Below, piece by piece: positions 881 to 31,988 of a stretch of 36,474 nucleotides of DNA. The stretch lies in assembly GCA_944323435.1 (NCBI GenBank), contig CALUSN010000004.1, positions 1 to 36,474 of the forward strand, in the 5' to 3' direction. Under the pieces are notes generated by a model that did not search any database, was not told the DNA's origin, and worked only from the letters and a program-made list of their open reading frames with translations. The stretch's first letter is position 1. Every line of letters starts with the position of its first letter. This DNA comes from Candidatus Gastranaerophilales bacterium (GTDB taxonomy: Bacteria > Cyanobacteriota > Vampirovibrionia > Gastranaerophilales > Gastranaerophilaceae). The translations under genes and the position numbers were made by a program.

Positions 881-2638
881 TTACCCCAATACTGCCATTT
901 CACACTTTGTGCAGTCAAATTTCAAGGGGTAAATTTTCCCGAATTCATCTCTTAAGACCAGCTTTTCAGAGGATTTACACATATTAAGAGCGTACTTTAT
1001 ACAGTGCTTTGTACGCATAAGTTCAACCTCGCGTAGCGGTCGGGAGCTTTCAAACGACATTTCCGTAACTTTTGTTCCGCATGATTCGTAAAACTCTTTT
1101 GCATAAGTATTATGAACATTCCCCCTGTAATCAATTTCCGGCTTATAATAAGGAACGTAGTGCATTTTTTTCTGCTCCTCACGTTTATATTCAGAAAGCC
1201 GCTTTTGCATAAGTTTATCCAGTACGCTTCGTCTTAATTCATTTATAGATGAGACCGGCATGAAAGGGATTTCAGATTCTATTTTTATATCATTTATATA
1301 AAAATCACTCTCTCCTGTTTTAGAAAACTGTTTTAGAAAATTTTCTCTCATTTTCTCGGGATTTTTTGCCGGTTCGCCATCGGGAAGCTGTACCTGAAGA
1401 GTTACATTATCTTCATCAATAAGATTTAGTATGTTATCTTTTAACAGGACTTTGACACCGATTTGACGTTTTACCGGCTGCGCCAAAAGTTTTTCAAATT
1501 CTATATCAAGATTTCTGTATATTTTATCCCCTTTTTTAAATACTGCCGGTTTATTGGGGTAAATGTATCCATTTTCAACTTTGTTTACCAGAAATCCTGT
1601 AACTCCGTCAGTTAAACCGTCCTGAGCATGGATAATTTTGTCTGTATTAATCTTTAAAGCTCCGTTTTTTATATCGACAACTTTTCCTAGAAATTCTCCT
1701 CTGGATTTTGGAGAGAGAAAATTAAAGCAATCCTTTCTTTTTTCCAGAAAGTAATCGGTAAATCCGCGGTTGAAGCTCTTTTCCGGTGCTGGCTCAAAGG
1801 GGGAAAAGCTTTTGCCGGAAGAAGATTTGTTAGAAAATTTATCCAACTCATGCCGGTAGTACGCCGTCACATTTTTCACGTAGTTAGAATCTTTAAGCCG
1901 TCCTTCAATTTTAAAAGAATAAATTCCTGCTTCTGTCATTTCTTTTAAAAGATTAGAGGCGTTAAAATCCTTTAAACACAATGCGTATACGTCTTTTGCC
2001 AGTACTTTCCCCTCTGCAGTCTCAACAGAATACTTTTTTCTGCAAGGCTGGGCGCATTCGCCTCTGTTTGCGGAACGACCGCCGATATGTTGGCTCAAAT
2101 AGCATTGACCGCTATAAGAAACACAAAGCGCCCCGTGAACAAAAGCTTCCAATTCTAAATTCGGATTTTTTTGATAAATTTTTTTTATCTGTTCTATTGA
2201 GAGTTCACGCGCAAGTACAACCCTTGAAACACCCAGATTATTAAAGAATGTGACTTTTTCGGGGTCTCTGTTGTCGCACTGGGTGCTTATATGAACAGGG
2301 ATTTTAATCTCTTCATCAATCAAACGCTTTAAAAGCCCCATATCCTGAATAATTACGGCGTCCACATTAATATTATCAAGTTCTTTTACAAGTTTGACCG
2401 CATCTTCTGTCTCTCTGTCCGTAAGAATCGTATTAACAGTAACAAAAACTTTTACCCAAAATCTATGAGCATAATTAACGACTTCTTTGATATCCTCTAT
2501 AGAATTACTGACTTTTTGCCTTGCCCCAAAAGCCGGGGCACCGATATAAATTGCATCAGCTCCGCAATCAATTGCAGCAAAGGCGATATTCTTATCTTTT
2601 GCCGGTGATAAAAGTTCAGTTTTTATATTCATTTTCAT
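881..2638 (-). CDS. Peptidase U32 family protein, RlhA-like (23S rRNA C2501 hydroxylase type)
   Basis: The protein has 585 residues. The N-terminal half is the U32 TIM-barrel-like domain, with the start motif LLSPAKD and the family signature C172-x6-C179-x15-C195-x3-C199 embedded in HGALCVSYSGQC and SANRGECAQPC. The C-terminal third carries KHCIKYALNMC and a closing KFDCTKCEM motif, as in the long U32 members that include E. coli RlhA (23S rRNA hydroxylation, prephenate-dependent). The Cys clusters probably hold an Fe-S centre. TrhP-type tRNA hydroxylases are the alternative, but the C-terminal extension favours the RlhA group. The first ATG (2638) has no Shine-Dalgarno. A TATAAT lies 8 nt before it, so the mRNA is probably leaderless. 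A second in-frame ATG is at codon 3. Confidence 0.87.
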   Translation of the reverse strand: MKMNIKTELLSPAKDKNIAFAAIDCGADAIYIGAPAFGARQKVSNSIEDIKEVVNYAHRFWVKVFVTVNTILTDRETEDAVKLVKELDNINVDAVIIQDMGLLKRLIDEEIKIPVHISTQCDNRDPEKVTFFNNLGVSRVVLARELSIEQIKKIYQKNPNLELEAFVHGALCVSYSGQCYLSQHIGGRSANRGECAQPCRKKYSVETAEGKVLAKDVYALCLKDFNASNLLKEMTEAGIYSFKIEGRLKDSNYVKNVTAYYRHELDKFSNKSSSGKSFSPFEPAPEKSFNRGFTDYFLEKRKDCFNFLSPKSRGEFLGKVVDIKNGALKINTDKIIHAQDGLTDGVTGFLVNKVENGYIYPNKPAVFKKGDKIYRNLDIEFEKLLAQPVKRQIGVKVLLKDNILNLIDEDNVTLQVQLPDGEPAKNPEKMRENFLKQFSKTGESDFYINDIKIESEIPFMPVSSINELRRSVLDKLMQKRLSEYKREEQKKMHYVPYYKPEIDYRGNVHNTYAKEFYESCGTKVTEMSFESSRPLREVELMRTKHCIKYALNMCKSSEKLVLRDEFGKIYPLKFDCTKCEMAVLG

Positions 2639-2646
2639 AAAAATAG

Positions 2647-2652
2647 ATTATA
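2647..2652 (-). promoter_or_regulatory. -10 box (TATAAT) of the U32 gene, leaderless configuration
   Basis: On the minus strand TATAAT is followed by 8 nt and then the ATG at 2638. A start point 6-8 nt after the box would fall on or within two bases of the ATG. No Shine-Dalgarno is present. It lies in the 16-nt gap after the upstream small gene. Confidence 0.5.
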
Positions 2653-2654
2653 AG

Positions 2655-2912
2655 TTATGTTGTAAAAGGCTTGTCAGGAATATTGGCGTATAACTTATTT
2701 GAAATGCATTTATCATAGGCCGACAAAAAAACATCCAGCTTCTGTTTATTTTCCTGATATTCAGCACTTGCATATTTACGTTCCAAATGTTTGTAAATTT
2801 TTGTCAACTGTTCTGATTCCGGAATTTGCAGCGTTGATATTTTATTAATGCCGGAAATATTTTTCACACCGGGTCTGTAAATATTACAATTTTCGTATTT
2901 ATTAATTTTCAT
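2655..2912 (-). CDS. Small hypothetical protein (85 aa)
   Basis: The predicted protein is a basic, mostly helical 85 residues ending in PDKPFTT, and I recognise no family. It begins MKINKYENCN and has a central amphipathic helical region rich in Lys, Glu and Tyr. The gene lies 16 nt upstream of the U32 gene on the same strand. There is no Shine-Dalgarno before the ATG. A TAATAT box lies 6 nt upstream, so this may be another leaderless transcript, though the surrounding sequence is so AT-rich that the box is ambiguous. A shared transcript with the U32 gene is possible. Codon use looks like that of its neighbours. Confidence 0.6.
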   Translation of the reverse strand: MKINKYENCNIYRPGVKNISGINKISTLQIPESEQLTKIYKHLERKYASAEYQENKQKLDVFLSAYDKCISNKLYANIPDKPFTT

Positions 2913-2963
2913 ATAAATATATTATTTAGTTTCAAAATTAATGTCAATCTATAAAAATCAGGG

Positions 2964-3434
2964 TTATTTAAAATTTTTAATATAACCCAGGACTCTTTTT
3001 GCCATAGGAGTAAGCTTTTGGTTTATATTCAGTTTTAAATTAATGCCGGATGAATTTACTTCAAACTTATTTCTTATAACCAAGCCCTTTGACATTTCCA
3101 GTGAATCTCCTTTGACGGATAATATTCTATTTCCTGCAATATCAAATTCAATTTTGGATACTTCAGAGAGATTACCTTGGTTATTGAATAAATTTTTTAT
3201 TATATTAAGCCCCTGATAAGCAGGATGTTCCGATTTCTGTGCAACCAATCTGTAAGTATCAAGTCCGTCAACAGATTCTTTTTTGTATAGTTTTAAATAT
3301 TTTATAAATGGAAATGATTTTGCATTTCCTGCATTATTAACATTAGATTTCAGACAATATTCCCCTCTAATGGATTTGAATTCTCTAAGTGTGTAAGGAC
3401 AATTCGGAGCGTCTAATTTTTGCAATTTTACCAT
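2964..3434 (-). CDS. Small hypothetical protein (156 aa)
   Basis: The protein has 156 residues with no recognised domain. The second half alternates hydrophobic and polar residues in short strands, suggesting a beta-rich fold, and it ends in a basic tail. The ATG at 3434 has a reasonable Shine-Dalgarno (AAAGGAT, about 9 nt upstream). A TACAAT -10 box lies at 3460-3465 (minus strand). Behind it is a 23-bp element almost identical to one upstream of the small gene at 34259-34690. There is a weak resemblance to that protein around HP..QGL, too short to call homology. The gene reads away from the 3736 gene. Confidence 0.65.
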   Translation of the reverse strand: MVKLQKLDAPNCPYTLREFKSIRGEYCLKSNVNNAGNAKSFPFIKYLKLYKKESVDGLDTYRLVAQKSEHPAYQGLNIIKNLFNNQGNLSEVSKIEFDIAGNRILSVKGDSLEMSKGLVIRNKFEVNSSGINLKLNINQKLTPMAKRVLGYIKNFK

Positions 3435-3467
3435 TATAAAAATCCTTTCGCTTATTGCTATTGTATT

Positions 3468-3490
3468 AAAACCTGTAAAATTATTTTTTG
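3468..3490 (-). promoter_or_regulatory. 23-bp upstream element shared with the 34690 gene
   Basis: On the plus strand this reads AAAACCTGTAAAATTA followed by TTTTTTG. It matches 34720-34742 with one mismatch in 23 bases. It lies 34 nt before the ATG of the minus-strand gene at 3434 and just upstream of its TACAAT box, so it covers the -35 and spacer region. The position suggests a promoter or operator element. Confidence 0.45.
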
Positions 3491-3668
3491 TTAAAAGTAT
3501 TACGTATAATTATTTCCGGCTTTATATTAGACTATAAGTTAAATATCAAGCTGTCAACTACTTTTTACTTCCTCCAAAACTCTATTATCCGATGTTTTAA
3601 GAGTTTAACCCCAAAAACTAAACTAACAGGTAATTTATGTTGATACATAACACCTTACAATTTCTGTA

Positions 3669-3715
3669 GGGGCTTTCAAGAAAGGTTTAAATTTACTTTT
3701 ATCTTGCTCAGCCCC
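3669..3715 (+). promoter_or_regulatory. Stem-loop in the 5' leader of the 3736 gene
   Basis: The stretch folds as GGGGCT (3669-3674) with AGCCCC (3710-3715), then a small internal loop, then CAAGA (3678-3682) with TCTTG (3702-3706), continued by a few more pairs. A TACAAT at 3656-3661 would place the transcript start at about 3667-3669, so the hairpin would be at the extreme 5' end. The Shine-Dalgarno and ATG of the next gene follow 21 nt later. There is no U-tract, so a terminator is unlikely. The rest of the 301-bp interval 3435-3735 shows only the minus-strand control region near 3434-3490. Confidence 0.5.
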
Positions 3716-3735
3716 GTCTATGGAGATATGTTGTT

Positions 3736-4047
3736 ATGGAAAAATTTCAGAATAAATATTTGGAAATAAAAAACATCAGCAAAGATATTGTGAACTGGGT
3801 AGAAGATATTGCCGAGGAAAACAACTGCAAAGTTGAACGCAAAGAGTGGAAAAGCAAATATAACAGCTATGTTGTTTATGACTATGAACCTTTTTGTTCT
3901 GAAGGTTTTGAGATAAATATTCTTCTCAGTTCATTTGATATATCATACCTTAATTTTATTAAATATCTTTACAATGAAAAACTAAGTACAATAGAATATT
4001 TGGACAATTGTATAAAGATTCCTGCCATAAAAAACTATTCACATTAG
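3736..4047 (+). CDS. Small hypothetical acidic protein (103 aa)
   Basis: The protein has 103 residues and is rich in Glu, Asn, Tyr and Ile, with a helical first third followed by short strand-like segments. It has no signal peptide, no membrane segment and no motif I can name. A GGAG about 11 nt before the ATG could serve as ribosome binding site. The leader contains the stem-loop at 3669-3715. The gene ends 47 nt before the aminotransferase, which has its own TATAAT box (4059-4064), so the two are probably transcribed separately. Confidence 0.6.
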   Translation: MEKFQNKYLEIKNISKDIVNWVEDIAEENNCKVERKEWKSKYNSYVVYDYEPFCSEGFEINILLSSFDISYLNFIKYLYNEKLSTIEYLDNCIKIPAIKNYSH

Positions 4048-4058
4048 AAAATTTGGTT

Positions 4059-4064
4059 TATAAT
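4059..4064 (+). promoter_or_regulatory. -10 box (TATAAT) of the aminotransferase gene
   Basis: A perfect TATAAT lies 30 nt before the ATG at 4095. The GAGGAG ribosome binding site falls between them, a conventional leadered arrangement. I see no good -35. Confidence 0.5.
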
Positions 4065-4094
4065 ATTCTTTAGCCAATAGCGAGGAGTATTATT

Positions 4095-5336
4095 ATGCAG
4101 GAAAAATTTAATGATTATGTACAGTCTCTTGAAACATACATAATGTTTCGTATAAAAGAAACCGTTGCAAAGATTACACCGGAATTAAAAGCAAAAGGAA
4201 GAGCGCCTATTACTTTATCAATGGGCGCGCCGACGGCAGCTCCGCCAAAGTATTTGATTGATGCCCTAAAAGCGGCTTTAGATGAGCCAGGCATACATAC
4301 ATATTCAAGTCCGAAAGGTGAAAAATACTATAGAGAAGCGGTTGCAAGAAGAATGAAAGAGCGCTTCGGAGTAGAACTCAATCCTGATACGGAAATATTT
4401 TCGCTTATCGGCTCAAAAGAAGGACTTGCAAACTTTATCAGAATTCTTATTAATCCGACAACCGTTGATGAAGATAAAGATATTATTATGGTGCCTGACC
4501 CGGGATACGCTTCATACGGCGAGATGATAAAAGTATCAGGCGGAAAAGCTTATTCTGTTCCGCTGACTCCTGAAAATAATTTTATGCCTGATATGGAGAA
4601 AGTTTGGGAAAATCTGATTAAAGAAGGATATAAACCTCAAAAAGTCAAAGCATTATTGATTAATTACCCTAACAACCCTCTCGGAGCAACTGCAACAAGA
4701 GAATATTACGGAAAGCTTGTTGATTTTTGCAAGAAACATAATCTGCTTTTGATTTCTGACGCTGCATACACTGATTTGTACTTTAAGCCGGAACTCAAAC
4801 CGATGAGCATTCTGGAAATTGAAGGTGCTAAAGATGTTGCAGTAGAATTCTTTAGCTTCTCAAAACCTTACGCAATAACCGGCTGGAGACTCGGATGGAT
4901 ATGCGGAAACGCGGATGCTGTAAAAGTTTTCGGGAAACTTAAATCAACTCTGGATTCCGGATTATTCAAGGCGCTTCAAAAAGCCTGCGCGGAAATTCTA
5001 AACTCTAAAGAAGGCGATGAATATATTAAAGAAGCCAATATAAGATTTAAAAAGAATCAGGAAATTTTTGTTAAAGGCTTAAAAGAGGAACTCGGCTGGG
5101 GTGAATTTAAGATTCCTGATGCAACATTCTACCTCTGGATTCCTATCCCTCCGAGATATAAAACTTCGGTAGAATTTACGGATGATTTAATGCACAAATC
5201 CGGCGTTGTAATGGTTCCGGGAGATGCATTCGGCAAATACGGAAAAGGCTTTTGCAGAGTTTCTGTTGTCTGCTCGGAAGACGAACTCAGAGAAGTTATC
5301 AGAAGAATGAAAGAGGATGGATTTACCTTTTTATAA
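4095..5336 (+). CDS. Class I/II PLP aminotransferase, LL-diaminopimelate aminotransferase-like
   Basis: The protein has 413 residues and is a full-length fold-type I aminotransferase. The motif LIGSKEG (about 104-110), NYPNNPLG (190-197), SDAAY (221-225) and the Schiff-base lysine K257 in SFSKPYAITGWRLG match the DapL/class I layout. Similarity is strongest to the DapL branch, which converts tetrahydrodipicolinate to LL-diaminopimelate for lysine and peptidoglycan. However, the usual GIGDPD near residue 42 is replaced by LSMGAPTA, and the usual SLSKTYNMTGW by SKPYAITGW, so substrate specificity is uncertain. The ATG at 4095 has GAGGAG 8 nt upstream. The gene stands alone and ends at a strong terminator. 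Confidence 0.87.
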   Translation: MQEKFNDYVQSLETYIMFRIKETVAKITPELKAKGRAPITLSMGAPTAAPPKYLIDALKAALDEPGIHTYSSPKGEKYYREAVARRMKERFGVELNPDTEIFSLIGSKEGLANFIRILINPTTVDEDKDIIMVPDPGYASYGEMIKVSGGKAYSVPLTPENNFMPDMEKVWENLIKEGYKPQKVKALLINYPNNPLGATATREYYGKLVDFCKKHNLLLISDAAYTDLYFKPELKPMSILEIEGAKDVAVEFFSFSKPYAITGWRLGWICGNADAVKVFGKLKSTLDSGLFKALQKACAEILNSKEGDEYIKEANIRFKKNQEIFVKGLKEELGWGEFKIPDATFYLWIPIPPRYKTSVEFTDDLMHKSGVVMVPGDAFGKYGKGFCRVSVVCSEDELREVIRRMKEDGFTFL

Positions 5337-5349
5337 TACAGTTAAAAGA

Positions 5350-5384
5350 AAACGTCCGGCTGAATGTAATTCAGCCGGACGTTT
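5350..5384. terminator. Bidirectional rho-independent terminator
   Basis: This is a perfect 16-bp stem (5350-5365 with 5369-5384) closed by a 3-nt GTA loop. A T-rich tract follows on both strands. It serves the aminotransferase on the plus strand and the convergent SEC-C gene on the minus strand. Confidence 0.92.
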
Positions 5385-5401
5385 CTAGTCTTTTTATCAC
5401 T

Positions 5402-6652
5402 TTAAACATCTTTTCCGCAGCAATTCTTATATTTTTTACCGCTTCCGCAAGGACAAGGAGAATTTCTTCCGACCTTTTCAGTAATCTCAGGTTTCTGCGG
5501 ATGTGGTTCGGAAATGTAATCAAATATCTCAGAAAATGCTTTTGAACAATATAAAATAGTTGCAGATGAATATATTCTGTTTTCCAGATATTCTGATTTA
5601 TATTTCTTGATTAACTCTTCATAAGTAAATTTTGTATCCATAATTTCATTTATAGTATCTATAAAATTCGGATATTTTGTTGAAACTCTGTCCAGAATAA
5701 TATTAGGAATAGATTCATTAGTTAAAAAATATTCAACACAGTTTTTTACATTCTCAACTTTTGTCTTATCCTCAAATATAGTACAGAATGTTTTGTAAAA
5801 AGGAATAGCATAAAGTCCGTTTTTCTCATCAAAAATTACTGCAACATCATATACTTCATTATGGGAAGAAAATCCGCCCATAGAATTTTCAAGGAAATTA
5901 GAATAATTATTGTCCAATTCTTTTACATGGAAAAACTTAAAATTAGTTATATCACACCCTTTATCTGAAAGGTCGATTTCTTCTCCTTCATTAAAAGCTC
6001 CAATTATATCATCTGCATGCTTATTAGTTGTAAGAATTATATCAGTATCAAAAGTTTTTATAAATTTTTGATACATACCAGCTATTGTGTCCTTTATCTC
6101 TTGTTCTTTATCAGGATTATCCGTATAGAGCATTTTCGGAGAGTGAACCAGCTTCATAACTGCATATCTGTATGCTTCTTCTTTTTGAGAATGAGAAAGA
6201 ACACTTGATATTTCTATAACATAGTATTCCCCGTCTAGTTCAAATATTCTTGCAGTAATATACTGTCCGGCGTATATTCCTCTAAAATTAGTCATTTTGG
6301 TAAGAGAAAGAACTGTATAAGTTTTTTCATTAATAAGATTATACAATTCAAATCCGTTTTTCAGAATCTTTTTAATTTCAAAAATTGAAGCCTGAGCATT
6401 TATAAAGCTTTCAATAACAGGATCTGTTCCTTTTTCTTCTTTAAATAATTGCAGAATTGATTTGTTATCCAGCCTGCGCTCAAAAATATACGGCAAAAAT
6501 ATTTTTTCCATTTGATTAAGCGAAATATTTTTAGCACCGATAGTTGCAAGGTATTCATAAAAATCTGCTTTTACTTTCTCATTTGATTGTGTAAAGTCAA
6601 AAATTTCTTTGACAATATTATTAATCCCGTTAATTTTATCTATTACTGTCAT
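5402..6652 (-). CDS. SEC-C metal-binding domain protein
   Basis: The protein has 416 residues. The last 23 are a textbook SEC-C zinc motif ([16 protein letters not shown], then GKDV), the module that ends SecA and many unrelated proteins. The remaining ~390 residues are acidic, mixed helix and strand, with no transmembrane segment or signal peptide, and I do not recognise a catalytic motif. The ATG at 6652 has a strong GAGGAG Shine-Dalgarno. A promoter TTGATA (6704-6709) - 17 bp - TATTCT (6681-6686) lies upstream on the minus strand. The gene is monocistronic. The function is unknown: the SEC-C tail suggests binding of protein or nucleic acid through zinc. Confidence 0.82.
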
Positions 6653-6680
6653 CGCTTTCTCCTCAAAGTCTATAATATAT

Positions 6681-6709
6681 AGAATAACTTAAGCAAATTT
6701 ATTTATCAA
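6681..6709 (-). promoter_or_regulatory. Promoter of the SEC-C gene
   Basis: On the minus strand TTGATA (6709-6704) and TATTCT (6686-6681) are separated by 17 bp, and the GAGGAG ribosome binding site follows. This is a conventional sigma-70-type promoter. The rest of the 206-bp divergent region to 6859 is AT-rich. It holds no obvious plus-strand promoter that I trust. Confidence 0.45.
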
Positions 6710-6858
6710 TCATTCTTGTTCTTAACCTGTTGGCTTAATTATAACAATTGCTTAACGAATCTTTACATTTCTTCTTATACCATGATATTAGGGCAATTTT
6801 TTGTAAGCCGATTACTTTATATATTTAGTTAGGTTTATTTTTGTAAAGGTTTATTATT

Positions 6859-9072
6859 GTGTCACAAATTAATCCGAATATAAATAATCAATATAATCAG
6901 GAACAGGCAATGCTTATGCAGCAGCCGCGCCCTCAGCAAATGCAGCCGGTTCGTTTACCTAACTATTATTATGTTCCTGATACGTACAGACCGAGTGCAA
7001 AAGAGATGATAAAAGAGAATCCGATGTACGACATGTTCTTAAAACCTTTTATAGAACATCCGCTTGCGCTTCTCGGCACATGGCTGGGGCTGGGAATCGG
7101 GCTTGATGCGTATTCAAGAGCTTGCGGGGGAGAGTACGATAAGAGCCTGGTAAAGAAAGCTGCAGATTTCGGAGACAACATTCAAAACTCAAAATTCATA
7201 CAGAGCAAACCTGTTCAAACAGTAATAAGCGGGTTTAATGCAGCAGGAAAAGCCGGACATAAAGCCGTTCAAAACAGTGCGATTCTGCGTGCTATGAAAG
7301 AAACTCCGACAATGCCGGAGTGGGCTATGGTTAAGTCTCAAATGTTTAACCAGAAACAGGAAATCGTGCAGGAATTTTTGAAAATTACAGATACATTAAA
7401 ACTCGAAAATGCTGAAATTCCGAAATTAAAAAATCTCGGGCTTAATGATTATGAAAAATCAATGCTCAAGAAAGTTTTTAATGTCCAAAAAATCTCACAA
7501 ATTCCGGAGCAGGAAGCGGTTAATCAAATTCTTTTGAACCGTCTGGGGAAATCACCCGATGAGATTCAAAAGATACAGAAACTCGGCGCAATATCAACAA
7601 AGACCGTAAAAGAAGAAATCTTAAAAGAAATGGGTTTAACGACTGACAAGCTTAAACTCATTAAAGATGATGTTTACGGAAACTATATAAATGATGTTAA
7701 GACTGCTGCCGAGAAAGTAAAAGGCAAAGTCAGAATCGGAGCCGGTCATTATCCGTGGCTGGGAGCTTTCACTAAGCCTTTTGAAAGAACAATCGGATGT
7801 GATGAGGTTTATAATAAACTTCACAGTATTATGGAAGGTCCTAAAACCGCAACCGGAAGATTTACTTCAAAGCTTATGCAGATGGTACACCGCGGATTTA
7901 CCTTCGGCGGCGGTAAACTCGGGGCTTTAATATTTATTGCGCCTCTTCTGGTTGAACTCGGGGTCAATGTTAAAAAGGCAGACAAAGACCAGAAAGTCGG
8001 AACAGCTGCAAACGGTTTTGTTGATAATATCTCGTGGGTATTCACTTTCCCTCTGGCTCTTAGAATGCTGCACGCAATAGGCGGTATTAAACATGCCGGC
8101 ATGGGAAAAGATAAAGTTGAACAGGTTAGAAAACTTACGGAAGATTTTAACAAACGTGTAGAAACAACTATAGTAAAAGACGGTGTAAAAATTCCTAATC
8201 CGAACACCTTCAAGAATAAATTAGAATATGATCTTGCAAGGGCTCAGGTTGAAAAACAAATCAAAGCTTTGAAAAAAGTTGAAGGTCAGAATATTTTAAC
8301 AAAAGGAGTAAGAAAACTTGCAGGAATTTTGACTCCTGATTTATGCCGCCTGAACAGTTACAGAAATTCTAATGCTATTGCAAATACAACCCGTAAACTT
8401 CCTGCCTTCTTTAGAAACTGCGCCGGTATTCCGATAAGAGTCGCAGCTTGGGCAGCTTTATCTATGGGAGTTCTGGGCGCAGCGCTTACAAAATGCACGA
8501 CTGCAATTTTTGGGAAGTCTTATGATTCAATGAAACAGGACGAAAGAAAAGATAACTTGAAAGCCCAGCAAAAATTCCTGAAAGATGATTTAAACGAACG
8601 TTTATACGAACTCCAGCGTATAAAACAGTACGGAAATACTCCCGCAAGGCAGGTAATACCTCAAGGACAAATGATTGCTTCAAGAGGCAGGTCAGAGAAC
8701 GGGATGAATATAACTTCTCCGGAAATAGAAAATAATACGGTTGATAATTATACTTATATCCCGTCTCAAGACAACAAAATCCCTTATATTCCGGAAAACA
8801 ACAGTGTAGACAATTATACCTATATTCCGTCTCAGGATTCGAAGATTCAGTCTCCGGTTAAAGACGGTAAAACGGATAATTACACCTACATACCATCTTC
8901 TGAAAATAAAATAAAACCGGAGCCGGAGAAGAGCAGATATATTCCGTCCCAGAAGGCTGCAAATATCCAGAAAACCTTTGATAACTCCGGAATTCAGGGA
9001 GTTCTGGACAGAGCACAAAAAGCGGAAGACAAAGCCTTGAGAGTTCTGGCAGGCAATTTTGAAGGAATGTAG
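6859..9072 (+). CDS. Large multi-pass membrane protein with C-terminal 22-residue repeats
   Basis: The gene starts with GTG at 6859, preceded by AAAGG, and encodes 737 residues. The N-terminus (about 1-50) is Gln/Pro/Asn-rich. Hydrophobic Gly-rich segments occur near residues 67-85, 350-370, 390-415 and 530-550, consistent with membrane helices, separated by long charged helical stretches. The C-terminal tail has three copies of a unit beginning DNYTYIPS at residues 629, 651 and 673, an exact 22-residue spacing, followed by a partial RYIPSQ. I recognise no family. It may be a lineage-specific envelope protein. An AT-rich dyad just after the stop may terminate it before motA. Confidence 0.75.
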   Translation: MSQINPNINNQYNQEQAMLMQQPRPQQMQPVRLPNYYYVPDTYRPSAKEMIKENPMYDMFLKPFIEHPLALLGTWLGLGIGLDAYSRACGGEYDKSLVKKAADFGDNIQNSKFIQSKPVQTVISGFNAAGKAGHKAVQNSAILRAMKETPTMPEWAMVKSQMFNQKQEIVQEFLKITDTLKLENAEIPKLKNLGLNDYEKSMLKKVFNVQKISQIPEQEAVNQILLNRLGKSPDEIQKIQKLGAISTKTVKEEILKEMGLTTDKLKLIKDDVYGNYINDVKTAAEKVKGKVRIGAGHYPWLGAFTKPFERTIGCDEVYNKLHSIMEGPKTATGRFTSKLMQMVHRGFTFGGGKLGALIFIAPLLVELGVNVKKADKDQKVGTAANGFVDNISWVFTFPLALRMLHAIGGIKHAGMGKDKVEQVRKLTEDFNKRVETTIVKDGVKIPNPNTFKNKLEYDLARAQVEKQIKALKKVEGQNILTKGVRKLAGILTPDLCRLNSYRNSNAIANTTRKLPAFFRNCAGIPIRVAAWAALSMGVLGAALTKCTTAIFGKSYDSMKQDERKDNLKAQQKFLKDDLNERLYELQRIKQYGNTPARQVIPQGQMIASRGRSENGMNITSPEIENNTVDNYTYIPSQDNKIPYIPENNSVDNYTYIPSQDSKIQSPVKDGKTDNYTYIPSSENKIKPEPEKSRYIPSQKAANIQKTFDNSGIQGVLDRAQKAEDKALRVLAGNFEGM
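8743..8940 (+). repeat. Three in-frame 66-bp (22-codon) tandem repeats
   Basis: Copies begin at 8743, 8809 and 8875. Each encodes DNYTYIPS followed by a Gln/Ser, acidic, Lys, Ile segment and a variable Pro/charged linker. A fourth, partial copy (RYIPSQ) follows. Third codon positions differ between copies, so the repeat is kept at protein level rather than being a recent DNA duplication. Confidence 0.8.
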
Positions 9073-9076
9073 CTAT

Positions 9077-9102
9077 TTTAACATTTTAATCAAAATGTTA
9101 AA
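9077..9102 (+). terminator. AT-rich 11-bp inverted repeat after the membrane protein gene
   Basis: TTTAACATTTT (9077-9087) pairs perfectly with AAAATGTTAAA (9092-9102) across a 4-nt loop, five bases after the stop codon. No proper U-tract follows and the stem is AT-rich, so termination would be weak. An operator for motA is less likely because the motA -10 box is 70 bp further on. Confidence 0.45.
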
Positions 9103-9172
9103 TTCTCCATAATTCCTATATTTAAAGGATTTATTGAAATTAAAAATATAGTTTAATACTAATAGAATATTA

Positions 9173-9178
9173 TATAAT
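9173..9178 (+). promoter_or_regulatory. -10 box (TATAAT) of motA, very short leader
   Basis: TATAAT ends 12 nt before the motA ATG, with GGAG between them (9181-9184). A start point 6-7 nt after the box would leave a leader of about six bases and exclude most of the GGAG. Confidence 0.45.
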
Positions 9179-9190
9179 TCGGAGATTATT

Positions 9191-9961
9191 ATGGATATAT
9201 TTGCAGTCGTAGGACTGTTTTTCGGTATTACAATGATTTTAATCGGGCAAGCCATGGAAGGCGGAAATATAGCCCAATTGTTACAAATAACAGCGGCATT
9301 TATTGTACTCGGCGGTACTACCGGTGCGGTAATATTAAGTTTTCCTCCCAAAACACTGCTTTCTGCAATAAAGATGCTTAAGAATGTATTTATGCCGCCT
9401 AAATCCGATTTTAATGCATTGATAACAGAAATAGGCGGGTTTGCAACAAAAGCAAGAAAAGAAGGTATTATTTCTCTTGAAAAAGAAGCTTACAATGCTT
9501 CGGATTCATTATTGACTCTTGGTCTTGGAGCAGTTGCCGACGGCACAGACCCGACTCTTGTCAGAGAAATGATGGAAAATCAAATCGAACAATTTGAAAA
9601 CCATGTAAATAATGCGGCGAAAGTTTTTGAATCATTTGGCGGGTATTCCCCGACATTAGGTATTATAGGTGCTGTAATGGGTTTGATCCAGGTTATGCAA
9701 AACCTCTCTGACCCGTCTAAGCTAGGTGCCGGTATTGCAGTTGCTTTCGTTGCAACAATTTACGGTCTGTTTGCAGCAAATCTGGTTATGATACCAATAA
9801 GCACGCGTATTAAATTTATATTTCAGGATGTAATGTTATATAAAAATATGATACTGGAAGGCGTACTTTCTATTCAGGCAGGGGAAAGCCCTGTATTAAT
9901 TGAAAGAAAGCTGCATTCCTTTATACTTGATGACAACAAGGATGCAAATACTAATGGCTAG
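9191..9961 (+). CDS. motA: MotA flagellar motor stator protein
   Basis: The protein has 256 residues and the MotA/ExbB-type layout: two N-terminal helices, a cytoplasmic loop, and two C-terminal helices. The signature PTLGIIGAVMGLIQVM followed by LGAGIAVAFVATIYGLFAAN is the classical MotA TM3-TM4 motif, with the prolines and small residues that face MotB. With MotB it forms the ion channel driving flagellar rotation across the inner membrane. The last 8 bases overlap motB, so translation is coupled. No other flagellar gene is in the window. The peptidoglycan-binding partner downstream supports a stator rather than an ExbB/TolQ energiser. Confidence 0.93.
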   Translation: MDIFAVVGLFFGITMILIGQAMEGGNIAQLLQITAAFIVLGGTTGAVILSFPPKTLLSAIKMLKNVFMPPKSDFNALITEIGGFATKARKEGIISLEKEAYNASDSLLTLGLGAVADGTDPTLVREMMENQIEQFENHVNNAAKVFESFGGYSPTLGIIGAVMGLIQVMQNLSDPSKLGAGIAVAFVATIYGLFAANLVMIPISTRIKFIFQDVMLYKNMILEGVLSIQAGESPVLIERKLHSFILDDNKDANTNG

Positions 9962-18674: not shown

Positions 18675-19532
18675 ATGGCAATTACAGTAAACAGCAAAAA
18701 AAAGCAGGTTAAGAAAACTTTTCAGGAATTAATTAATGATTTAATGACATCAAGTTCTGAAAAAGTTAGATATAATGCTGCCCGTGTTCTTGGAGAAATG
18801 GGCGATTCAAAAGCTGTTGAACCGTTAATTGAAGTTTTGAAGAATGATAAAAACGGTTCTGTTCGTTTATATGCCGCTCGTGCATTGGGCGAATTGGGTG
18901 ATTCTAAAGCCACTGAACATTTGATTGAATCTTTAAGAGAAGATCGTAACGTTGACGTAAGAGTTCGTGCAGCACGTGCACTCGGACGTCTCGGCGGAAA
19001 AATCGTAGTTGAACCTCTCGTAGAAGCTCTTAATGATGAAAATTCTCAGGTTTGTATAACTGCAACTGATGCTTTAATTGAAATCGGTGATGTTGCAACT
19101 GACGCATTAATGAAATCTTTAGACCACGAAAAGGTTAATGTAAGATGTGATGCAACCCGTGCTCTGGGTGAAATCGGAAATAAAAAATGCGTTGATAAAA
19201 TTATCAACATGTTGTATGACGAATGGGTTAACGTAAGAATTTATGCAGTAACTTCTTTGGGTAAATTAAATGATAAAAAAGCTGTTCCTGCCTTGATTGA
19301 TGTTATGAAAAACCGTTCAGAAAATGATTTAGTCAGAGCCGGGGCTGCAGCAGCTCTGGGCGTTTTAAGAGACCAGAGAGCACTACTTCCTTTAAGAGAA
19401 TTGATTATGGAAGCAGAGGAACTCGGTGAATTAGAAGATACGGCTTTAAAATCTTTCAAAAAGATTATGGCAGCTAACTGGCAGGCAATCCCCGGTGCAA
19501 CACAGCAAAAGAAACCTGCTCAAACATTTTAA
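18675..19532 (+). CDS. HEAT-repeat protein, PBS-lyase type
   Basis: The protein has 285 residues from the ATG at 18675, set by GGAGG 8 nt upstream. After a basic 12-residue start, it is almost wholly made of about seven HEAT repeats of roughly 31 residues, with recurring VR..AARALGE.GD..A..PLIE (for example in VRYNAARVLGEMGDSKAVEP). This is the repeat type of phycobilisome lyases and cyanobacterial-style scaffold proteins. No lyase partner or phycobilin gene is here, so a protein-protein scaffold is more likely. The sequence is unusually regular and has a long leader and a strong terminator, consistent with good expression. Confidence 0.88.
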   Translation: MAITVNSKKKQVKKTFQELINDLMTSSSEKVRYNAARVLGEMGDSKAVEPLIEVLKNDKNGSVRLYAARALGELGDSKATEHLIESLREDRNVDVRVRAARALGRLGGKIVVEPLVEALNDENSQVCITATDALIEIGDVATDALMKSLDHEKVNVRCDATRALGEIGNKKCVDKIINMLYDEWVNVRIYAVTSLGKLNDKKAVPALIDVMKNRSENDLVRAGAAAALGVLRDQRALLPLRELIMEAEELGELEDTALKSFKKIMAANWQAIPGATQQKKPAQTF

Positions 19533-23759: not shown

Positions 23760-26700
23760 TTATATCTCCAAATCTTTTTCGGAAATCTCTTTTTTCGGGA
23801 ATTTATCTACAAATTCCTGAACGATTACATAGAATGCCGGAGTAAGAGCTGCCCCGAGAGTTGCAGCTGCAATCATACCGCCGAATACTGTCGAACCTAC
23901 GGATATTCTTGAATTAGCACCGGCACCGTGTGCAAAAAGCATCGGAAGTACACCGATAATAAATGCTAATTCTGTCATCATAATTGCTCTGAACCTTAAT
24001 TTTGCCGCCTTAACTGCCGCATCTTTTACGGATAAGCCGTGTTTTTCGTGCTCTTCTTTTGCAAACTCAACAATCAAAATAGATTGTTTAGCCGCAAGAC
24101 CGACAAGAGTAATCATACCAACCTGAGAATAAATATCAAAGGACTGATTAAGCATAAGTTGGAATATTAAAGCGCCTAATGCCGCAATCGGCGATATTAA
24201 GAGTACCGCAATCGGGATTGTATAACTTTCGTACAAAGCAACCAGAAACAGGTATACAAATATTAACGCCATTGAAACAATTAATATTGTCTGTCCGGAA
24301 GCTTCTCTTTCCTGCGCGGAAGTACCGGACCAATCAAAGCTTATATCCGCTGGAAGCACATTTTTTGCAACGGCTTCCATTGCATTCATAGCATCGCCGG
24401 AGCTTTTCCCCGCAGCCTGCTGACCTTGAATTTGTACAGACTTATACTGGTTGTATCTTGTAATTGATGCCGTACCGATTGTTTGTCTCAATTTTACTAT
24501 TGATAAAACAGGAACCATAACACCATTATTATTCTTTACATATATTCCGGACAAATCCGTTGCTTTATTTCTAAACTTACTTTCTGCCTGTAATTGCACC
24601 TTATAAACCCTGTCATATTTGTTAAAGTCGTTAACATAATAAGTACCGAGCATAGAAGAAAGGGTTGAATATAATTCCTGTAAGTCCACGTTTTGTGCAA
24701 GAGCCTTTTCATAGTCGATTTCTACAATATACTGAGGAACATTAGCCTGAAATGTAGTATAAACACTTGACAAATCCGGATTCTGATTTGCAGCGGCAAT
24801 AAGCTTTCCTGCCCAGCCTTCCAAATCCTGCGGAGTATATTCGCCTTTAGAAAGCATCTGGAATTCAAAACCGCCCATCATACTCATCCCCATTATCGCT
24901 GGAGGTGAAAACGCAACAATGGACGCTTCTTTAATAGTTGAAGCCTGTGCTCTTATCTTATTAAGAATCGCAATATGTGACATGTCAGTTGCCTGACCTT
25001 TTATTTTTCTTTTAATCCATTCCAGAACACCGACATTTCTGTCTGCATAATCATCAAGCTGAATAATAACCGTTGACTGGTTTGATGCTCCATTACCGCC
25101 AAAAACAGTCAGCTTTTCTTTATTTATACCATCAATATCTTTTATAAGATCAGTAAATTTCCTTGAAACCTGCTCTGTGCGTGTTAATGACGCTCCGTCA
25201 GGAAGTGTAATCTGCGCCAGAAGAACACCCTGATCCTCGTCCGGAATAAAGCCTGTAGAAATTGTTCTGAAGCAGAAGAATGTCAAAGCCAGAATAATTA
25301 TATAGCAAACTATAACAAGTTTTTTGTCATGAACAAACTTGATAACGTATTCCATATAAAAATCTTCAAGTTTTGCAAACATGTCATTAAACTTGACTAC
25401 CAGAATATTACCCTTTTCTTCAAGCTTTGCAATTAAAGGATGCTTTTGTTTAATATTACTTTCACCCTGATGCCCGAGAAAATGCGAACACATAGCCGGC
25501 GAAAGCGTAAGTGCGCAAATTGCTGAAAGTGCAATAGAGACCGCAATACAAACCGCAAATTGCTTGTACATTATGCCTGTCATACCGCCCATAAATACAA
25601 TAGGAACAAATACTGCCATCAAAACGAGTGCCATAGCGACAAGAGCAAATCCAACCTCCTGCATGGTAAGCTGAGTCGCAATAATCGCAGATTTACCCTC
25701 GTCAATATGCCTTTTCACGTTTTCTATAACTACAATTGCATCATCGACTACAACCGCAACAGCCAATACCATTGCAAACAAAGTTAAAAGGTTAATTGAC
25801 ATCCCAAGAGCTTTGAGAATGGCAAAAGTTCCCACCAGAGAAACCGGAATTGTAACACAAGGAACAAGAGTTGCCATTCCGTCTCCCAGAAATAAGAAAA
25901 TAATGACAACTACGATAAATCCGGTAAGGAGAATTGTAAATTCAACCTCCTTCATTGATTCATGTATATAATCAGCATCGTCCTTTACATATAAAATCTT
26001 AATTCCGTTAGACATTTCTGCATTTAACTGTTCAACTTTAGCTTTTACAGCTTTAGACAGATTTATAACATTTGCGTCTGGCAACTGGGAAATCATTACA
26101 ACAGCGGAAGGTTTACCATTAACAAGCCCCAGATTAGAGTATGATTCCGCTCCTAGTTCAACTCTTGCTATATCTTTAAGTTTTACATTAGAGCCATCCA
26201 TATTTGAACGTATTATAATATTTTCAAATTCTTCAACATCATCAAGTCGTCCCTGGGTTTTCAATGTCAATTGAAGCGCTCCCGGATCATCTGTCGGAAG
26301 CTGCCCCAGCGCTCCCGCTGTGACCTGTGTATTCTGATTGGCAATTGCTGTTTTAACCTCGCTTGTTGAAACATTTAAACCTGCCATTTTCTGCGGATCA
26401 AGCCAGATTCTCATTGAATAATTTCCGGCACCGTATACCTCTACATCAGCAACCCCGTCAATACGTTTTAAATCATCTTTTATATAAATAGAACCATAAT
26501 TTGTTAAATCTAATTGTGTCCAGTCGCCGGATTCAGGATACAATGTTAAGATAATTGCACCGGAACCTGATGTTCTGCTTATTGCCGTAACACCGGTCCT
26601 CTGAACATCTTCCGGAAGCTGGGATTGAACCTGCTGAATCCTGTTCTGGACATTCATAAGGTTTATATTCTTATCTGAACCAACCTTAAAATACAAAGTA

Positions 26701-26990
26701 AGAGAATAACTTCCGTCATTTGATGTTGATGTCATATATGTCATATCTTCAACGCCATTAAGCTTATTTTCCAACACTGTGGCAACAGAAGATTCTATAA
26801 CTTCCGCACTGGCGCCCTGATAATTGGCAGAAACCCTTACCTGCGGCGGAGTTACATCCGGATAGCTTTCCTGTTTAAGGCTTACCATGGAGATTAAACC
26901 CATAATCACAATACATACGGAAATTACTAATGCAAATCTTGGTTTCCTTATAAAAAAGAATAGCTTTTCTTTATCAAAAATCTGTTTCAT
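23760..26990 (-). CDS. RND (HAE1/AcrB-type) efflux pump inner membrane protein
   Basis: The protein has 1076 residues, normal for AcrB-type pumps. It has twelve transmembrane helices and two large periplasmic loops. The proton-relay pair D416-D417 lies in TM4 ([19 protein letters not shown]) and the matching lysine in TM10 ([17 protein letters not shown]). [12 protein letters not shown] near residue 600 is typical. Drug-type substrates are likely, but the class cannot be stated. The start overlaps the MFP stop by one base (TAATG). It works with the membrane fusion protein and the TolC-type channel of the same operon. Confidence 0.96.
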
Positions 26991-28138
26991 TATTTTTCAC
27001 TCTGCTTAGTCGTAATTTTTAACTTCTGGCCTTCCTGAGCTACATTCTGAATACCTGTTACTACAATAACATCAGACATTTCAAGCCCTTCTTCTACAAC
27101 CCAGTTATTGTTTATATCATCAGAAACTTTTATGTCTTTTCTTACAGCTTTATTGTTTTCATCAACTGCCCAAACATAATATCCGCTCATTGCATCTCCT
27201 TTAGTACATGCCTGAGGAACTGTCATATATTCAACAAGCTCTGGAGCTATTAGTTTAACCTTCATATAAGCACCCGGAACAAGCCATCCTTTTGAGTTGT
27301 CAAAAGTTGCACGCATTGTAACAGAGCCGGAATTCTTATCTATCTTGTTATCAACAAAATTAATCTTACCGACCTCATCGTACCAGTCGCCGTCAGAAAA
27401 CTGAACTTTTACCTGAACATCTTCAAATTTATTACTTGCTCTCAGTAATTTTACAAAATCATCTGTTTTCAAGCTGAAAGTTACATAAACAGGCGAAACG
27501 CTCGCAACATTAACCAGCGACCCGGAGGAAGCCGTTACATAGTTTCCTTCTGTTATGTTAACCTTACCGATTCTTCCGTCTATCGGTGATTTTATGGTTG
27601 TATAGCCTAAATTTACTTTTGAAAGTTCTAGCTGTTGTTTTGCAGCATCCAATAATGCCTTGTTCTGGTTTCTGGTTGCAAGGCTCTGGTCAACATCAGA
27701 ACGGCTAATCAAATCTTCTTTTACAAGCGCATTAGCCCTGTCCAATTCCTGCTGGGCATTAGTATAAAGCGCCTGATACTGATTAACCGTTGCCATAGCG
27801 TTATTTACAGACAACTGGAATTCTCTCGGGTCTATCTGGAAAAGAAGCTGACCTTTTTTAACAAAATCACCTTCATTAAAATATTTTTTAAGCAAAAATC
27901 CGGAAACACGAGCTATAACATCAATAGAGTATTTAGCCTCAACCCTTCCCGTAGCCTCTGCCGAAACATTAATTTTTTCTATATGAGGATTATCAACAAT
28001 AACTTCCTTTGGCATGCTAAGAGCACGTCTTTGAATAACACCTGCTATAAATCCGGCTGATTTATTATAAATTATAGGAACTATTATTATAAGCAATATA
28101 ATAATTCCTACCTGCTTACGCGTAAGTTTTATTTTCAT
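26990..28138 (-). CDS. RND efflux periplasmic adaptor (membrane fusion protein)
   Basis: The protein has 382 residues from the ATG at 28138, which has GGAGAGAGG immediately upstream. The frame continues 40 codons further into the MerR gene, which I regard as spurious. One N-terminal membrane anchor ([15 protein letters not shown]) replaces a lipobox. Barrel-sandwich/lipoyl halves ([26 protein letters not shown] and [10 protein letters not shown]) flank a helical hairpin, followed by beta-barrel and membrane-proximal domains. It bridges the pump and the outer membrane channel. The 106 bp to the MerR gene contain no terminator I can see, so the four genes are probably one operon. Confidence 0.94.
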
Positions 28139-28244
28139 ACCTCTCTCCATATACTTTATTTGGAATAATTTAATTCTAAAATCTATTGATAGTAATGTCA
28201 ATTCCGATTTACAAATTTTCAAATAAATAAAGGAGAAAATTTGG

Positions 28245-28664
28245 TCATTTAACAGCACACTCCTGCTTGTTTGTTTGATTCATAGGGTTCCAGTTATCCT
28301 GCAGGTTATGTTTTATTAGATTTTTGTAGTGTTCTTCTTTATAATCCAGTATCGCAAGCTGTTTTTTCAAATCTTCCATCTGTTTCAAAGCTTTTTCACG
28401 CGTAGCTTTTATGATTTCATATCTCTCGGAAATTGTTGAATCACCGACAATACACAGGTCTATATAACGTTTTACAAGTTTATTTTCCGTACCTATTGAG
28501 CGGAGACATTTTACTATTCTTACCCAGTTTAAATCATTATCCGAAAACATTCGTATATTATTACGATTCCTTGTAACAAAAGGGAAAAAACCGCTTTTAG
28601 CCCAGAAACGAAGTGTATGTTCGGAAATATCCATCTTTTCAGCAACTTCTTTAATTGTATACAT
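28245..28664 (-). CDS. MerR-family transcriptional regulator
   Basis: The protein has 139 residues. The winged helix-turn-helix is at 1-70 (MYTIKEVAEKMDISEHTLRFWAKSGFF then the RMFSDNDLNWVRIVKCLR wing). A long dimerisation coiled coil (about 95-125) ends with no clear effector domain. Cysteines are few and not in the metal-site pattern of MerR/CueR, so it resembles small-molecule or stress sensors. AGAGG lies 7 nt before the ATG. As the first gene of the efflux operon it probably controls that operon and itself, as MerR proteins act on promoters with long spacers. Confidence 0.87.
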   Translation of the reverse strand: MYTIKEVAEKMDISEHTLRFWAKSGFFPFVTRNRNNIRMFSDNDLNWVRIVKCLRSIGTENKLVKRYIDLCIVGDSTISERYEIIKATREKALKQMEDLKKQLAILDYKEEHYKNLIKHNLQDNWNPMNQTNKQECAVK

Positions 28665-28834: not shown

Positions 28835-29788
28835 TTAATAGGAACGCTGATTTACTATATAAATATTAAGGATTTCCTGATACAATTCCTGCGGCAGCTT
28901 TCCGAAGGCTTTCAATAAACTTTCTGCTTTTTTAATTTTTGCCAGGCATACCCTTCTGTCGTATTGATTAAGTATCTCCGGCTCTGTTTCGATATGGGTT
29001 TTAAATTCATTTAGCAGTTCTAATAAATCCTGAGGGTTGTCAATTGTAATTTCAATTCTGTCAAAGGATTCTACTGCTGCAACATTTACCAAGTGCTGCC
29101 ATTTCTTTTCATAAGGTGCCCCTATTTGTTTGTCAAAATCTATTTCCGGATGGTCGGCTTTGTATTGCTTTTCTTTCTTTGTCCATTCTTTTTCCGGCAG
29201 GGTTGCCTTGTCAAACCTGTATAACATTTGGTATTTTATATCATCACTTTTTATTTCATAACCGTATTTTACTGCACTTTTAATTTCTTCGATTAAATAA
29301 TTTAGTTCAATTGCAGCCCTTTTGTCCTGATTGCAATTTTCAGTAACCCGTCTCAAGTGGGCTTTATTCATATCAATAAGATTTAGAATTTCTTCCTTTG
29401 ACTTTGGAGTATAAAGTTTTTTTAACTCTTCCTTATCATATACTTCGCCTTTTTTATCAAGTTCCTTGCAAACCTCCTCAAAAGCTTCCTGGTAATCGGA
29501 ATCATTAAGGGTTGCAAAATTAAATATATCTTCAATTTTTTCGTGCGAAGTTTTATACCGTAAATCAACAGCTCTGCCTAACGCCGCAGCACCGGCTGTA
29601 CCGAAAAGCCCTAAAGTAAATATTGTTCCTAAAACCGCAGGATTTTCTATTGGGTTTGTTTTAGCCCTCTGTTCTGTTTTGATTTCATTCTTGTTATTAT
29701 CAACTGTTGTTTTAACGAGCATTCCGCCTGAAATAGCTGTAGTAAATGCCAGCGGCAGTATTGCTTTTGAAAATCGGGTTTTAATCAT
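28835..29788 (-). CDS. Membrane-anchored hypothetical protein (317 aa)
   Basis: The protein has 317 residues. An N-terminal hydrophobic segment (about 10-28) could be a signal anchor, and a second Gly/Ala-rich segment (about 50-73, including LGTIFTLGLFGTAGAAALG) is a probable membrane helix. The remaining ~240 residues are charged and helical, possibly facing the cytoplasm or periplasm. I recognise no family. The ATG has AAGGAAGTG 6 nt upstream. It is divergent from nadE across a promoter region with shared elements, which suggests co-regulation or a common operator. Confidence 0.75.
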   Translation of the reverse strand: MIKTRFSKAILPLAFTTAISGGMLVKTTVDNNKNEIKTEQRAKTNPIENPAVLGTIFTLGLFGTAGAAALGRAVDLRYKTSHEKIEDIFNFATLNDSDYQEAFEEVCKELDKKGEVYDKEELKKLYTPKSKEEILNLIDMNKAHLRRVTENCNQDKRAAIELNYLIEEIKSAVKYGYEIKSDDIKYQMLYRFDKATLPEKEWTKKEKQYKADHPEIDFDKQIGAPYEKKWQHLVNVAAVESFDRIEITIDNPQDLLELLNEFKTHIETEPEILNQYDRRVCLAKIKKAESLLKAFGKLPQELYQEILNIYIVNQRSY

Positions 29789-29874: not shown

Positions 29875-29937
29875 GTTAATGTCGGATTATACTAACCCGA
29901 CATTAACTTTGCAATAGAATTTTCCGCAAGGTATAAT
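29875..29937. promoter_or_regulatory. Symmetric divergent promoter of nadE and the 29788 gene with an 11-bp dyad
   Basis: The self-complementary hexamer TTGCAA (29909-29914) can be the -35 for both strands. Exactly 17 bp to its right is TATAAT (29932-29937, plus, for nadE). Exactly 17 bp to its left is TATAAT on the minus strand (29886-29891, for the 29788 gene). GTTAATGTCGG (29875-29885) and CCGACATTAAC (29897-29907) form a perfect 11-bp dyad straddling the minus-strand -10 and touching the shared -35. A further small dyad AAAACC-GAGA-GGTTTT (29938-29953) overlaps the nadE Shine-Dalgarno. Confidence 0.7.
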
Positions 29938-29957
29938 AAAACCGAGAGGTTTTAAGA

Positions 29958-31988
29958 ATGAATTTGTACGAACTATCCGAAATAGCAGATAAGAGATTTT
30001 CTCACGGAGAAGAAATCCCTGAAAATATTATTGATGGGATTAAAAATATTGTATCAGAAGGCGGGTATATCGGGATGGCGCAGATTAACCCGATTGCCGG
30101 AAATATTGAATATAACGCAAAAAAGATTGCAAAATACATTAAATATGCCGCTAAAATCGGGCTTGAAATGGTTGTTTTTCCTGAACTTGCGCTAATGGGG
30201 TATCCGATAGAAGATACAATTGACAGACATCCGGTTATTGTTGATGAAAACATTAAATGGCTTAAAGGGCTTGCAAAGATTACAAGCGGAACTACAGCTT
30301 TAGTCGGGTTTGTAGAGCCGAGAAAAAAGGATGCGGAAGGCAAGAAGTATTTTAACTCCGTTGCTATACTGAAAAACGGGAAAATTCAAGGTATTGTAAG
30401 AAAATCTCTGCTTCCTAATTATTCTGAATTCAATGACTACAGATACATAGAGCCGTCTCCGGTTGTAGGAGTTCAGCCTGCAGAAACTCTCGGGTGTTTT
30501 GATAAAGACAGTATTAAAGACTCTCCGAAAGTATATGAAAAATACGGAATCTCAATATGCGAGGACTGCTGGAACAATAAAGAATTTTTTGAAAAACACC
30601 TTTACGAAAAGGATCCGATAGAAGAACTTTCTAAAGAAAACCCTGAAATATTTATAAACTGTTCTGCGTCTCCGACTAGAGCAAAGAAAGAGCAGTTAAA
30701 ACACAACATGCTCTCGTTCATTGCAAAAAAATATAAAACTCCAATAGTTTATGTAAATCAGGTCGGCGCAATTGATAACAGCTCTTTTGACGGCTCAAGC
30801 AGAGTATTCGGTTCAAACGGTGAACTTATAGCAAGGGCAAAATCTTTTGAAGAGCAGTTTTTAATCGTAAATCCCTCAAAAGGCATAGGGAAAATTTACC
30901 CCCTTACAAAAGGGCTTGATAAATCTTTAACAGAACAAAAAGTTTTCACACTTGAGTACGAATCTGACTTAGAGAGAACATACAAAACAATTATTCAGGG
31001 AATAAGAGATTATTTCAAAAAATGCGGGTTTAAACGTGCGGTTTTAGGTCTTTCAGGCGGGCTGGATTCAACTGTTTGCGCAGTTCTTATGGCTGACGCT
31101 ATCGGGAAAGAAAACGTTTTTGGTATTTCCATGCCGTCTCATATTACAAGCAGGGAAAGCAAGTCTGATGCTGAAGAACTAGCTCATAATCTGGGCATAA
31201 ATTTTGCAGAGGCATCAATCAGACCGATGATTGATACAACTACGGAATGCTTGAATAAATTATTTGGGGATGTAGAAAAAGCCTGGGGAAAATACTGGGA
31301 TGCCAAAAGTGGAATGTTTACTAACCACCGTGAAACATTTACCCCCTCGTTTACACCGGATAATATACAAGCCCGCTCAAGAGCTATGTTTCTCTGGGGA
31401 ATAAGTAACGAATTCGCTTCCTGTATTCCGATTGCAACCTCCGATAAATCAGAGCTTTATATGGGATATGCAACCATTAACGGTGATATGTCAGGCGGAT
31501 TTGCGCCAATTGCGGATGTTCCTAAGACAAAACTGTTTGCTTTTGCAAGATGGCTTAACGCAAACAGAGAAGAAAAAAATGCAATTCCGGAAGCAATAAT
31601 ATTAAAAAAACCGGGAGCAGAGCTTGCAATCGACCCTAAGACAGGAAAACCGCTTATCGCAGAAGATGCTCTGATGCCTTATGAATTCTTGGATGAAATT
31701 ATCTGGCGTGTAGAAAACAAAAACGAAGGGTATCAGGATTTATTAGAAACCTCATTTGTTTATGAGACTCACAATAAGATTTCAAAAGAGCAAAAAACTG
31801 AATGGATAGACAAATTTTTCAGAAGAATGTCAACCGCCCTTTATAAATGGTCAATCTTACCGCCGTCTGTAATCGTAGAATCACGCTCTATTAATAAATA
31901 TGATTACCGTCAGCCTATAACCTCCGCTAAAATTAACTACAAAGGGGTAAATGACGAAACTGTAAATGCAATTCTTACAGAATTATAA
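29958..31988 (+). CDS. nadE: Glutamine-dependent NAD+ synthetase
   Basis: The protein has 676 residues. After a 36-residue N-terminal lead come the nitrilase-type glutaminase domain (GMAQINPIAG, E in VVFPELALMGYP, K in VRKSLLPNYSEF, C in SICEDCW) and the synthetase domain with ATP pyrophosphatase P-loop LSGGLDSTVCA. The loop TSDKSELYMGYATINGDMSGG and DVPKTKLFAFARW bind deamido-NAD. It makes NAD+ from deamido-NAD, ATP and glutamine in the cytoplasm. GAGAGG lies 8 nt before the ATG. The promoter is the best in the window. The N-terminal lead is longer than usual. Confidence 0.96.
   Translation: MNLYELSEIADKRFSHGEEIPENIIDGIKNIVSEGGYIGMAQINPIAGNIEYNAKKIAKYIKYAAKIGLEMVVFPELALMGYPIEDTIDRHPVIVDENIKWLKGLAKITSGTTALVGFVEPRKKDAEGKKYFNSVAILKNGKIQGIVRKSLLPNYSEFNDYRYIEPSPVVGVQPAETLGCFDKDSIKDSPKVYEKYGISICEDCWNNKEFFEKHLYEKDPIEELSKENPEIFINCSASPTRAKKEQLKHNMLSFIAKKYKTPIVYVNQVGAIDNSSFDGSSRVFGSNGELIARAKSFEEQFLIVNPSKGIGKIYPLTKGLDKSLTEQKVFTLEYESDLERTYKTIIQGIRDYFKKCGFKRAVLGLSGGLDSTVCAVLMADAIGKENVFGISMPSHITSRESKSDAEELAHNLGINFAEASIRPMIDTTTECLNKLFGDVEKAWGKYWDAKSGMFTNHRETFTPSFTPDNIQARSRAMFLWGISNEFASCIPIATSDKSELYMGYATINGDMSGGFAPIADVPKTKLFAFARWLNANREEKNAIPEAIILKKPGAELAIDPKTGKPLIAEDALMPYEFLDEIIWRVENKNEGYQDLLETSFVYETHNKISKEQKTEWIDKFFRRMSTALYKWSILPPSVIVESRSINKYDYRQPITSAKINYKGVNDETVNAILTEL

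Follow-up and report, generated by a model that had tools for sequence, protein, structure and literature searches.

We analysed a 36,474-nucleotide stretch of DNA from Candidatus Gastranaerophilales bacterium (hereafter the window; its own genome is G000 in the comparisons), in which nadE, encoding a glutamine-dependent NAD+ synthetase, is separated from a divergent neighbour gene by an intergenic region with the following features.

28835 to 29788, minus strand: divergent gene of 317 aa, with two hydrophobic N-terminal stretches and no Pfam match
29875 to 29907, no strand assigned: probable member of a dispersed family of REP-like palindromes, symmetric and without a GTAG tag, recognised by its repetition and absent from the orthologous site of the relative G053
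29886 to 29914, minus strand: putative promoter, TTGCAA, 17 bp, TATAAT, with its -10 in the loop of the repeat; in G000, G019 and G035 only
29909 to 29937, plus strand: predicted nadE promoter, TTGCAA (-35), 17 bp, TATAAT (-10); the pattern recurs in 14 genus genomes
29909 to 29929, no strand assigned: candidate operator, a degenerate copy of TTGCAW-N9-WTGCAA (here TTGCAAtagaattttCCGCAA), proposed from half-site conservation
29958 to 31988, plus strand: nadE, 676 aa, with CN_hydrolase (PF00795) and NAD_synthase (PF02540) domains (Pfam)

Elsewhere in the window, genes for an RND-type efflux transporter and HlyD-type membrane fusion adjoin a MerR-family regulator gene (23760-28664, minus strand), an ordinary efflux operon layout.

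The initial annotation had read the intergenic region as two promoters mirrored around one shared -35, with an 11-bp dyad over one side as a possible NAD-related operator. The letters are as it described: TTGCAA at 29909-29914 is its own reverse complement, and a TATAAT lies 17 bp from it on each strand, at 29932-29937 on the plus strand and at 29886-29891 on the minus strand, where the putative promoter matches the consensus at 10 of 12 positions with a 17-bp spacer. The 11-bp arms of the dyad are indeed perfect, but they form the outer part of a 15-bp inverted repeat (29875-29889/29893-29907) with 14 of 15 positions paired around a 3-nt loop. Dinucleotide shuffles of the window gave 0.1 hairpin placements of this strength, indicating that the dyad is not random; six hairpins of its class lie inside the window, and many in the genome. 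Although a stem of 15 bp might suit an intrinsic terminator, a T tract is absent after the hairpin on both strands and the hairpin sits between divergent genes. We consider a terminator extremely improbable and dropped it for the missing T tract.

nadE was detected in 55 of 58 genus genomes, and the upstream regions were read at 45 nadE places. In 14 genus genomes nadE is preceded by the pattern TTGCA-N16/17-TATAAT, as TTGCAA-N17-TATAAT in nine (among the 45 places) and with a non-palindromic -35 and a 16-17 bp spacer in five (TTGCAT in G011, G012, G052 and G062; TTGCAG in G049), showing that the promoter is conserved and the palindromy of its -35 is not. Besides the three genomes that carry the dyad, eleven keep the nadE promoter free of it; in several other species nadE lies close behind another gene, without such a promoter. 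It is well supported by this conservation across the genus that nadE has a predicted sigma-70-type promoter with TTGCAA as its -35, from which transcription would begin near 29944. That half of the proposed pair is retained, and the mirror half is not. TTGCAA was also tried as a genome-wide -35 and rejected, being found 17 bp upstream of TATAAT 2 times against 1.3 in the control over 420 kb of the own genome, which is no enrichment.

Six of the 65 genus genomes contain the mirror pattern ATTATA-N16-18-TTGCAA-N16-18-TATAAT, three of them at the nadE locus and the other three at unrelated single places; the reversed control for the exact pattern gave 1 match in the same 65 genomes. Full-length relatives of the 317-aa gene were found only in G019, G035 and G053 among 56 genus genomes searched, and the whole intergenic region is alignable only in these three among 65. 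The initial annotation had named a lack of conservation of the mirror geometry as evidence against its own reading, and the alignment of the relatives' intergenic regions showed just that for most of the geometry. Only the repeat-bearing species (G000, G019 and G035) have the minus-strand -10, and all three retain it.

Comparison of these filled sites with the empty one is informative about the origin of the arrangement. In G035, positions 29875-29907 are identical to the window. G019 differs by five changes in or next to the left arm and by a single change in the right arm, as counted by hand on the alignment, and pairing of the dyad falls to 11 of 15 positions, against 14 of 15 in the window (also a hand count). 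G053 has the same divergent gene pair with an intergenic region 31 bp shorter and flanks that align; TTGCAA and the plus-strand TATAAT are intact there at 17 bp, and the dyad and the minus-strand TATAAT are both absent. We infer that the 31-bp difference is an insertion and not a deletion, although G053 is the one informative empty site and a deletion there could produce the same picture. At a second locus with matching flanks, the copy in G000 (contig C99) is broken and that in G019 (contig C37) is intact. This reciprocal decay at the two loci argues against selection for symmetry at either of them.

Searching the own genome with the dyad region as query gave more copies beside unrelated genes, the best of them on contig C115 (GTTAATGTCGGGTTAGTAAACCCGACCTACATTG); other copies of AAAGTTAATGTCGGGTTAGTA in this genome likewise adjoin unrelated genes. 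The strict pattern GTTAATGTCGG-N4-16-CCGAC(A/C)T was present in 10 of 65 genomes and its reversed form in none of the 65; counting both strands, G053 has 18 matches and G043 has 4. Over 1.09 Mb of the own genome, a looser consensus (GTTAATGTCGG-tip-CCGAC...) matched 31 times, corresponding to about 29 places since symmetric copies are counted twice, compared with 2 in the reversed sequence; 26 of the 31 lie outside ORFs of at least 100 aa, though such ORFs cover 86% of the sequence. The tips of the copies vary and keep their self-complementarity (GTTAGTAAAC, CTTGGTAAAG, ATTGGTAAAT and GCAATGC). Judged by this repetition, the dyad is a member of a dispersed, mostly intergenic family of REP-like palindromes. 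A related symmetric hairpin, GTTCTTGTCGGGC-TATA-GCCCGACAAGAAC, was seen on contig C16 of the own genome (stretch position 19250).

GTAG-tagged REPs are palindromes of 20-40 bp with a 5-13 bp stem, a short loop and an unpaired GTAG at one end (PMC3733652). The family resembles them in being a short palindrome with an 8-bp stem, a variable, covarying tip and a multi-copy, mostly intergenic distribution, in forming head-to-head dimers, and in the unpaired GTAG (TGTAG) that ends most of its members, the majority of copies ending in CCGACCTACA (= TGTAGGTCGG). In contrast, the window copy belongs to a symmetric minority that ends in CCGACATTAAC; its pairing reaches 15 bp, and its own end, ATTAAC, is paired. 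Lacking the unpaired GTAG, it is filed here as REP-like and not as a canonical GTAG REP. REPINs are inverted REP doublets (PMC3116915), and G053 carries four inverted pairs of about 133-138 bp (contigs C7, C9, C14 and C26) with GTTAATGTCGG at both outer ends, an organisation that matches the REPIN doublet. The spacers of these pairs are AT-rich and look alike, so that the pairs resemble a REPIN- or MITE-like element for which no transposase is evident. Unlike a REPIN, the window locus has no inverted doublet but a single hairpin, possibly a doublet minus its middle; the symmetric form would arise from a head-to-head doublet by loss of all sequence between the tips. A limited literature search for palindromic repeats of Gastranaerophilales yielded unrelated microbiome papers and no description of such a family.

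No cognate RAYT transposase was identified for the family in the own genome, G053 or G043. The own genome has one Y1_Tnp gene; a different REP (GTAGGATGTGGTAAATC...) flanks that RAYT, and we rejected a link between it and the repeat. No Y1_Tnp match was found in the copy-rich G053. On contig C41 of G043, two copies of the family are found in the neighbourhood of a RAYT that a different GTAG palindrome flanks more closely, weakening the apparent link. The RAYT-like Y1_Tnp gene of the own genome is on contig C65 (within 1200-4100), where several copies of another GTAG-tagged palindrome, GTAGGATGTGGTAAATCTTTGATTTACCGCATC, flank it.

These observations bear directly on the suggestion that the dyad is the operator of an NAD-related regulator such as NrtR, able to block or switch both genes. 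An NrtR-family winged-helix protein (PF21906) is encoded in 63 of 65 genomes, the own copy being on contig C71 (within 4000-9500). Like NrtR operators, the dyad is a palindrome at an NAD gene; it is symmetric and abuts the -35. However, among the nadE upstream regions examined in the genus the dyad occurs only in G000, G019 and G035, it is a dispersed repeat whose sequence also adjoins unrelated genes, and in the closest relative, G019, one arm has decayed and the symmetry is broken. It also mismatches the mycobacterial NrtR site, GTTTTCGA-N7-TCGAAAAC (PMC6800001), and the nrtR upstream regions bear TGTAACA...TGTTACA instead, so nrtR does not share the dyad with nadE as it would in an NrtR regulon with this operator. 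For other NAD biosynthesis genes, a motif search over 58% of the genome yielded no more than a partial nadK candidate. We therefore regard NrtR as unsupported as the dyad-binding protein, and an operator role of this kind as very unlikely. The TGTAACA...TGTTACA inverted repeat lies upstream of the NrtR-family gene in many genus genomes.

A better operator candidate, by sequence conservation, is TTGCAW-N9-WTGCAA, a conserved inverted repeat that spans the -35 and spacer of the nadE promoters of the genus, its left half being the -35 itself. Across ten distinct nadE promoters the right half-site scores 47 of 60, where shuffled spacers give 20.6, and none of 20,000 shuffles scored as high; the test overstates significance, the sequences being related and the motif having been chosen after viewing them. 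In the window the right half is degenerate (CCGCAA), and a search of 1.09 Mb found no further intergenic instance with the 9-bp spacing that could define a regulon. It is possible, though less likely than not, that nadE is regulated through this repeat and that the conserved TTGCAA reflects an operator as much as a -35. Nothing ties the NrtR-family protein to either the dyad or this inverted repeat.

Taken together, the locus is very probably best explained as an ordinary, conserved vegetative nadE promoter beside a copy of a REP-like repeat acquired in the common ancestor of the three species. That ancestor of three close Gastranaerophilales species would have gained the copy directly upstream of the nadE -35, so that its outer arm would end beside TTGCAA and its loop would supply, at the right spacing, a minus-strand TATAAT. 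The result looks like a mirrored promoter because TTGCAA is its own complement. Two points count against this explanation: the dyad is almost exactly symmetric, unlike most family members, and the minus-strand TATAAT is retained in all three species with the repeat. Still, the mirrored layout most likely arose as a by-product and not as a designed switch, and the minus-strand -10 would be an accident. The inserted repeat might nevertheless have given the 317-aa gene a functional minus-strand promoter, polymerase binding in one direction at a time: the element's consensus match and spacing, its retention in three species and a start codon some 90 bp farther on that has a fitting ribosome site all favour this. 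Such a promoter is not required, since the gene exists in G053 without the minus-strand -10, and, judged by eye, the changes among the three species show no visible avoidance of this promoter. We consider it somewhat unlikely that the minus-strand promoter works. It is unlikely, too, that insertion of a mobile palindromic repeat beside a self-complementary -35 created, in one step, a mirror-image divergent promoter sharing that -35 that was then fixed in the three species.

Under the preferred explanation of a repeat copy beside the nadE promoter, what looks like an operator dyad beside a metabolic gene can turn out to be a copy of a dispersed repeat, and comparison with empty sites can expose such cases; a further outcome of the analysis is the description of a REP-like family in Gastranaerophilales. 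If polymerase uses the minus-strand -10, the repeat would have given the neighbour gene a new divergent promoter with no regulator needed, and an active -10 would make this locus a clean natural example of promoter birth through repeat insertion.
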